From: Candidatus Colimorpha pelethequi
GTDB lineage: Bacteria > Bacteroidota > Bacteroidia > Bacteroidales > P3
Direction of reading: 5' to 3'
Assembly (NCBI GenBank): GCA_018064245.1
Contig: JAGHVO010000030.1
Coordinates: forward strand, 1-64,000
DNA length: 64,000 nt
Part shown: positions 21,338 through 23,749 of the stretch, one piece after another
How the letters are laid out: each line of letters starts with the position of its first letter
Numbering within the stretch: position 1 is the stretch's first letter
Notes under the pieces: generated by a model
Told to the model about the DNA's origin: nothing
Databases searched by the model: none
Seen by the model: the letters and a program-made list of their open reading frames with translations, nothing else
Program-made: the position numbers and the translations under genes

Positions 21338-23749
21338 CTATCGTACTCTAATTTTCATTCCGGGCTTGTACTTCTTCACATCGGGATTGAGCGCCTTGAT
21401 ACTTTCCACAGTGGTCTTATAACGATCCGCAACAATGGCCAATTTGTCGCCATGCTTGATCGTATAGTAAACCTCGCGAGGCTTCTTGGGTTCCGCAACA
21501 GTCTCTTTCACATAACTCTTGTCGGCCTTATATGCACTCTTTTTCAAAGAAGAGGGCTGGGTGATGCCGAAATAGGACTTGTCGAGGTGCAATTTATGCG
21601 TACGCAACTTATAAGTCTGGAAATCCAAAATCCATTCCGGATCGAAACACTCATATTGGAAACGGACCTCGAAATGGAGATGCGGACCCGTGGAACGACC
21701 CGTACTTCCGCCATAACCCAGCACATGACCAGCCGATACGGTCTGGTGCGGACGGACATTGATCTTGGAAAGATGCCCATAGACTGTTTCCAATCCGTTG
21801 AAATGACGTACTACCACCAAATTTCCATAAGCGCCCATAGGACAGGCAATGCGGACCACGCCGGCAAAAGCGCACCTCACAGGATCGCCCATGTTCAGCA
21901 AAATGTCAACCCCACGGTGCGGCCGATTCCAACGCCATCCATAAGGAGAAGTAATACAATTTTTTACAGGAAAGCAAAATTCATCGTCGGACTTAACCAA
22001 ATTGATATTGATGGCATCGGGCAAGGAATCCAGCGAGACCTTTGCAGGACGCACTCTTCGTTGAGAAAAATTATTGCCATACCACATATAGGAAGGCAGG
22101 TCGCTGCCCGAAGAATAATATTGATCAATCATCTCGTCGGCTTTCAGCAACGAACTGTCGATAGTTTTGCCGTTCGGATTGGCGACTGGAGCGGCAGCCT
22201 TATTGACAGGCTTTGAGCCATGCTGTTTCTTATATACAATAGAGTCGTAGTAACTCATGGGAGCCTGCGCGCAAACTTGAGAAGCAGTCAAAAACAGCAT
22301 AACGCATGCAAAAGCCAAAAACAATATGGTTTTCAAACTTCTGCGCAAACGCGCCACAGGTATGTGCAATGCTTCTCGATATTTCGCCACAGTACGCCGT
22401 GCCAACGGGAAACCTTTTTCTTTGAGTGCTTTGCACAAAGCCTCATCGGTGATGGGATTTTGCTTGTCTTCCGCCTCAATGAGCTGTCGCAGGATATTTT
22501 TCACGCTCTCGGTAGCCACCGACTCACCCTCGCCGTTGGTGACGGATTTGGAGAAACATTCCTTCAAGGAAATGATGCCAAAATCAGTCTGGACATATTT
22601 GCTGTTCACCACACGCGAGACCGTCGATACGTCGAAACCCGTTGTATCGGAAATGTCCTTCTGCCGCAACGGACGCAAGTCGGCCACATCGCCCGACATA
22701 AAGTAAGCTCGCTGAACTTTGACAATGGCGCCAAAGATACGATTGATTGTATCGTGGCGTTGCCTCAATGTGCTGATGAGCTGTTGCGCGCTCTCCACTT
22801 TCTCGTTCAGGAAAGCAAGCGTCTCCGCCTGCTGTGAATCCATTTTCCGACTGTTGGAGAGTTCTTTGTGAAGATCCTGATAGAACACACTCAGCTGAAG
22901 TTCAGGCAGATTCTTGTCGTTGACGGCATATACCAAATTGCCCGAATGATGCGTAACGGTAATGTCGGGAATAATGCTATGATTACCCATCATTGAATTG
23001 CCCTCTGTGGTGCCTGGTTTGGGGTCAAGCGAGCGAATGACGGCAAGAGCCTTCTCAAAATCCGCTTTGGAAAGCGAAAGTCTCTCGCAGATAGACTCAA
23101 AACGATGCCTGGAGAAAAGGTCGAAATAATCATCAACGATGGCTGTTGCATTCAGCAAAGCGTGAGAACGGTCGCCTTTGCGGTGAAGCTGCAAAGAAAG
23201 GCACTCACGCAAATTTCTCGCACCCACTCCGGCAGGGTCGAGCGACTGAACCACCTGCAAGGCCTCCTGAACCTCCTCCTCACTGACTTCGATCCCTTGA
23301 TCGAAAGCCATATCGTTGGCAACCAATCGAATATCGCGACTCAAATAGCCCGAATCATCTAGGCAACCTATCAACTCGTAAGCGATAGTAAACTGACGTT
23401 CAGAAAGATCCTTCAAGTTCAGCTGTTCCACGAGATAGTCGATGAACGAAGCCTCCTCGGCAAGCACCTGCTCTCGCGAAGTATGGTTTTTATCAGACTC
23501 CATCCGTTCGCGGTAGCGGTAATCCTCGTCGTCCGAAAAAGGATTTGTCTCGTCATCTTCCACCACAGAGTCGATAGACTCCGTCAAAGGTTGGCTGCAA
23601 TTGTCAATCTCCAACAACGGATTCCTTTCAACCTCCTCCTTGATGAACTGCTCCAACTTGGTGACAGGTTGCTCAAGCATCCGCATCAACAAAAGTTGTT
23701 GGGGCGAAAGCCGCTGCTGTTGCTTTAGCTGTTGGGTCTGACGATTCAT
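21338..23749 (-). CDS. rpoN: Sigma-54 factor (RpoN) in continuous frame with a signal peptide + M23 peptidase + LysM protein
   Basis: Residues 1-471: RpoN incl. RpoN box ARRTVAKYRE; then SLKTILFLAFACVMLFLTASQVCAQA (signal peptide), M23 HRGVDIL...GPHLHFEV, C-terminal LysM (YYTIKHGDKLAIVADRYKTTVESIKALNPDVKKYKPGMKIRV). Confidence 0.85.
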   Translation of the reverse strand: MNRQTQQLKQQQRLSPQQLLLMRMLEQPVTKLEQFIKEEVERNPLLEIDNCSQPLTESIDSVVEDDETNPFSDDEDYRYRERMESDKNHTSREQVLAEEASFIDYLVEQLNLKDLSERQFTIAYELIGCLDDSGYLSRDIRLVANDMAFDQGIEVSEEEVQEALQVVQSLDPAGVGARNLRECLSLQLHRKGDRSHALLNATAIVDDYFDLFSRHRFESICERLSLSKADFEKALAVIRSLDPKPGTTEGNSMMGNHSIIPDITVTHHSGNLVYAVNDKNLPELQLSVFYQDLHKELSNSRKMDSQQAETLAFLNEKVESAQQLISTLRQRHDTINRIFGAIVKVQRAYFMSGDVADLRPLRQKDISDTTGFDVSTVSRVVNSKYVQTDFGIISLKECFSKSVTNGEGESVATESVKNILRQLIEAEDKQNPITDEALCKALKEKGFPLARRTVAKYREALHIPVARLRRSLKTILFLAFACVMLFLTASQVCAQAPMSYYDSIVYKKQHGSKPVNKAAAPVANPNGKTIDSSLLKADEMIDQYYSSGSDLPSYMWYGNNFSQRRVRPAKVSLDSLPDAININLVKSDDEFCFPVKNCITSPYGWRWNRPHRGVDILLNMGDPVRCAFAGVVRIACPMGAYGNLVVVRHFNGLETVYGHLSKINVRPHQTVSAGHVLGYGGSTGRSTGPHLHFEVRFQYECFDPEWILDFQTYKLRTHKLHLDKSYFGITQPSSLKKSAYKADKSYVKETVAEPKKPREVYYTIKHGDKLAIVADRYKTTVESIKALNPDVKKYKPGMKIRVR

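Follow-up and report, generated by a model that had tools for sequence, protein, structure and literature searches.

An in-frame fusion of sigma-54 to a predicted secreted M23 peptidase, conserved in a Bacteroidales genus

In the 64,000-nucleotide stretch of DNA analyzed here (the window), the sigma-54 gene rpoN runs on in a single frame into the coding sequence of an M23-LysM cell wall enzyme. The fusion is real, conserved, and recurrent rather than an artifact, and its anatomy is strongly supported. The chain is probably inserted N-in/C-out by an internal signal peptide, with signal peptidase I then releasing the M23 enzyme and sigma-54 remaining at the inner membrane. A large rumen genus appears to synthesize its only sigma-54 as part of an exported cell wall enzyme. 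The group of Bacteroidales concerned is presumably of rumen origin, judging by the RUG (rumen genome) names of the nearest MAGs.

An earlier note, made from the letters of this DNA, had described a complete RpoN followed by a signal peptide, an M23 domain, and LysM. The 803-aa frame, its coordinates, its junction codons, and the effect of removing one T all held when re-checked on the sequence, and domain searches and an end-to-end alignment confirmed the order of the parts (Table 1). On the RpoN half, Pfam placed Sigma54_AID at residues 3 to 48, CBD at 93 to 290, and DBD at 313 to 470, and residues 7 to 472 aligned to positions 8 to 476 of the 477 in a solved sigma-54. With AID, core-binding, and DNA-binding domains and the RpoN box, this half belongs to the RpoN/sigma-54 family; the domain match and the HxxxD and HxH metal-site motifs place the other half in peptidase family M23. 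In the structure model, the RpoN core is confident and the M23 region is of middling confidence, and one continuous helix (residues 466 to 489) is predicted straight after the RpoN box helix. A Foldseek search with the fusion model returned matches to sigma-54 structures and to M23 structures, none of those listed holding both. The phage search gave matches to sigma-54 pieces or M23 pieces only.

Table 1. Features of the fusion frame in the window, with residues numbered along the 803-aa product
Feature	Position	Strand	Observation
Fusion ORF, 803 aa	21338..23749	(-)	Single frame spanning RpoN, a signal-peptide-like segment, and the M23-LysM enzyme; kept open in 85 species of the genus
Complete RpoN (sigma-54), residues 1-470	22340..23749	(-)	Pfam AID/CBD/DBD; full-length TIGR02395; end-to-end match to a solved sigma-54
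RpoN box ARRTVAKYRE, residues 450-459	22373..22402	(-)	Intact; almost every position invariant in alignment A1
RLRR, residues 467-470: RpoN end, doubling as putative positive n-region of the internal signal peptide	22340..22351	(-)	Three R/K in the tetrapeptide at this position in 83/86 fused loci
Putative internal signal peptide, h-region and c-region, residues 471-494	22268..22339	(-)	Signal peptidase I cleavage predicted at VCA↓Q, behind residue 494; median of 17 residues from RLRR to residue -1 in the fused loci
SYYDS motif by the predicted N terminus of the mature enzyme	22241..22255	(-)	Kept in most fused relatives
Peptidase_M23, residues 610-704	21638..21922	(-)	PF01551, E 2.7e-29; H611/D615/H690/H692 (HxxxD, HxH) invariant in alignment A1
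LysM, residues 762-802	21344..21466	(-)	PF01476; missing in many fused relatives

The uninterrupted rpoN-M23 frame was found in 85 of the 116 rpoN-bearing genomes of the window's genus, which bears out the possibility, raised in the earlier note, of a real fusion. Fused relatives within the genus share 48 to 57% (about 50%) identity with the window protein, and all genomes compared are drafts, many of them MAGs. Together with one species of a sister genus (G471), these 85 species make up the 86 fused loci discussed below. Among the 31 unfused rpoN-bearing genomes of the genus, an M23 gene adjoins rpoN in 24, is spaced from it in two, and is not found nearby in one; four were read only for the unfused rpoN end. 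Since these relatives manage without it, the fusion is not obligatory. The rpoN gene is single copy in 115 of the 116 genomes, the exception (G395) being a broken gene that shows up as two pieces; because it is single copy in nearly all fused genomes, all of their sigma-54 comes from the fusion. In G395, rpoN lies in two frames of 541 and 95 aa (L273), owing to a frameshift in the gene or in the assembly. Pairwise substitution counts indicate purifying selection, with pN/pS values of 0.11 in both M23 and the C-terminal 150 codons of RpoN, 0.34 in the linker, and 0.40 in the signal segment, which indicates constraint over the whole chain.

Some fused proteins (L013-L017, L019-L021, and L023-L028) end past M23 without LysM, so this domain was lost or gained inside the fused group; since many fused relatives do without it, LysM is unneeded for whatever maintains the fusion. 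Elsewhere in the order, three long sigma-54 frames among the matches listed (G302, G245, and G057) reflected an upstream extension of the frame with a normal RpoN end. What looked like fusions in G452, G458, and G115 proved to be neighboring genes separated by a stop.

As no stop lies between the halves, a ribosome completing RpoN must continue into M23. Synthesis of one joined polypeptide is thus given by the sequence itself. We infer that its RpoN half would fold in the cytoplasm and that the segment after RLRR would serve as an internal Sec signal, inserting the chain N-in/C-out. A signal peptidase I cut at an xxA↓Q site would then release an ordinary periplasmic M23 cell wall hydrolase. 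Sigma-54 would keep a short hydrophobic tail at its C terminus, embedded in the inner membrane, and might work while tethered or be freed by the site-2 protease (S2P) of the genome, which encodes one M50 site-2 protease frame; S2Ps are known to clear remnant signal peptides (PMC9044953).

The junction carries, by motif, the features of a signal peptidase I-type signal: a positive n-region, an uncharged h-region, a small residue at -1, and a permissive residue at -3. For most fused species, the hydrophobic stretch directly follows RLRR, so that the positive n-region is the sigma factor's own C terminus; in unfused relatives the K/R residues belong to a separate n-region that the M23 gene itself encodes. 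The earlier note found it odd that a signal peptide should follow a cytoplasmic factor; the oddity is real and would be resolved by an internal signal peptide that takes RLRR of RpoN as its n-region. Among the 86 fused loci, position -1 holds A in 77 and position +1 holds Q in all 86, the latter by construction (search pattern [AGSH]Q); in alignment A1, Q495 is invariant and A494 is at least 90% conserved. The fused segment has a peak Kyte-Doolittle value of 3.36, against 3.02 for unfused signal peptides, in species that are not independent of one another. A lipoprotein anchor is ruled out, as there is no lipobox at the window junction (VCA↓Q) and no conserved Cys in the relatives.

The same topology would be adopted by an uncleaved bitopic protein, in which a membrane helix permanently connects sigma-54 with a periplasmic M23 domain, in the manner of ToxR or RodZ, and in which the cell wall domain would position or sense for the sigma factor. 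The continuous predicted helix would suit such a protein, and RLRR agrees with the positive-inside rule. However, the hydrophobic stretch is short, with a median of 16 to 17 residues including the c-region compared to 17 in unfused signal peptides, a length that is of the signal-peptide type and not the anchor type. The A↓Q cleavage motif is also kept in almost all species, as it is in unfused secreted relatives. We therefore consider a permanently uncleaved chain quite improbable.

It is also conceivable, if very improbable, that internal initiation near the junction yields the working M23 enzyme and that the fused chain is either degraded or made as a by-product. The junction codons in the window are CGC AGA AGT TTG AAA ACC ATA, with TTG at positions 22336 to 22334; in-frame TTG codons occur at residues 468, 472, 476, and 478, and many fused loci have some ATG, GTG, or TTG within the stretch. 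However, in the stretch from which a secretable M23 could be initiated, 59 of the 86 fused loci lack an ATG and 22 contain none of ATG, GTG, and TTG (the G471 junction has no possible start codon), and the positions of those present are scattered. These counts led us to reject a conserved internal start as the general mode, and the dedicated TTG start suggested earlier did not prove to be conserved. In addition, the n-region charges are encoded by RpoN codons upstream of most candidate starts, and the fusion would still be made, as the stop is absent.

An assembly or sequencing slip of one base at TTT (22335 to 22337), where one T fewer would give AGT TGA and thus a stop, is refuted for the fusion in general and has virtually no probability, as the gene is likewise fused in 84 further species of the genus, which are about 50% identical and differ in their junction codons. 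When orthologous junctions were compared, no TTGA or T-run was common to the fused genomes of the genus; the junction codons differ so widely that the TTT in the window has no bearing on the fusion as such.

In an RpoN tree of 162 rows, the fused or unfused state required three changes. The fusions of the window's genus group together with one unfused row (L037, genome G013), which has a long branch, inside. A single clade of these fusions was not rejected by topology testing (P = 0.41), nor was a single fused clade without L037. Joining the fused G471 (row L176) to the fusions of the window's genus as one clade was rejected (P = 1e-48), which indicates at least two origins of the fusion; in both, RLR[RK] abuts the h-region. 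Several sister genera have the order rpoN, a gene for a membrane protein of ~200 aa, and M23. This intermediate gene was seen at L204-L206, L210, L215, and L244, and its product had no Pfam match in L205, the one tested. Almost all genomes of the window's genus lack this middle gene, with M23 either adjoining rpoN or fused to it. At four unfused loci (L192, L195, L196, and L203), a separate M23 gene starts with an ATG in a 4-nt overlap (ATGA) with the rpoN stop. Translational coupling, another option in the earlier note, fits these four loci. The ATGA-overlap arrangement is a plausible forerunner of the fusion. At L185 (G349), an in-frame M23 follows directly after the rpoN stop, with no ATG, GTG, or TTG ahead of its signal peptide; this may reflect an error, readthrough of the stop, or an unusual start. 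Unfused adjacent, spaced, and independently fused relatives provide a ready comparative series.

If sigma-54 is indeed left at the membrane after signal peptidase cleavage, its activity might be set by protein export, with the fused chain reporting Sec and signal peptidase flux or the state of the cell wall. The sole sigma-54 would then be freed or rightly placed only after M23 had been exported and cut (and S2P had trimmed the remainder), making it a sigma factor that serves as its own membrane-bound sensor. We regard this extension as tentative and rather unlikely. The genome has one strong PF00158 match to an enhancer-binding AAA+ protein, with GAFTGA intact; it is encoded at L251 751-2046(-) and has a Fis HTH but no N-terminal sensory domain, which, speculatively, would allow the sigma factor itself to be a point of control. 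The ORF beside it (L251 2103-3500) resembles dnaG primase, judged by eye. A scan of the window's own genome for sigma-54 promoters gave 11 exact matches, compared to 2 with the reversed pattern, and one of the 11 was in a convincing promoter position. An exact TGGCAC-N5-TTGC lies at L258 (G000:C17:64448-64462, just beyond the window), 33 nt upstream of the ATG start codon for a protein of unknown function, and is the best candidate sigma-54 target found.

The fusion is relevant to the question of whether sigma-54 can function when membrane bound, and to how one chain can evolve from a secreted and a cytoplasmic protein that still get separated. Annotation pipelines may call such genes plain RpoN and overlook the secreted half. 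We found no report of a sigma-54/M23 fusion protein in the open-licence papers searched, and nothing on such a fusion in those on membrane sigma factors and internal-signal polyproteins.

Several known systems share parts of this arrangement. One-component regulators such as ToxR and CadC, as well as RodZ, have a layout like that of the fusion, with a cytoplasmic DNA-binding domain, a single membrane pass, and a periplasmic domain; unlike the fusion, they are not sigma factors and have neither a retained signal peptidase site nor an enzyme domain. The cytochrome b/c1 precursor FbcH of Bradyrhizobium is a single chain of two proteins separated at an internal signal peptide, but its first half is an integral membrane protein, whereas that of the fusion is a cytoplasmic sigma factor. 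The membrane part of pro-sigma-K is a short N-terminal pro-sequence. Pro-sigma-K belongs to the sigma-70 family, whereas the fusion contains sigma-54 and has its predicted membrane segment, hydrophobic, signal-like, and in frame with RpoN, at the C-terminal side, leading to an exported enzyme. Pro-sigma-K is a membrane-associated sigma precursor handled by an intramembrane protease, SpoIVFB (PMC9042235, PMC11486902), and similar handling is proposed for the fusion. Signal peptidase and then an S2P (RasP) have been found experimentally to act on RsiV, a protein with a cytoplasmic N-terminal domain (PMC9044953). The fusion is like RsiV in having an N-terminal cytoplasmic regulatory domain, a putative signal peptidase site at the membrane exit, an extracytoplasmic domain, and an available S2P (PMC9044953). 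However, RsiV is the anti-sigma factor of an ECF sigma factor, whereas the fusion carries the sigma factor itself and, unlike RsiV, has as its outer part an M23 hydrolase with intact metal-site residues.
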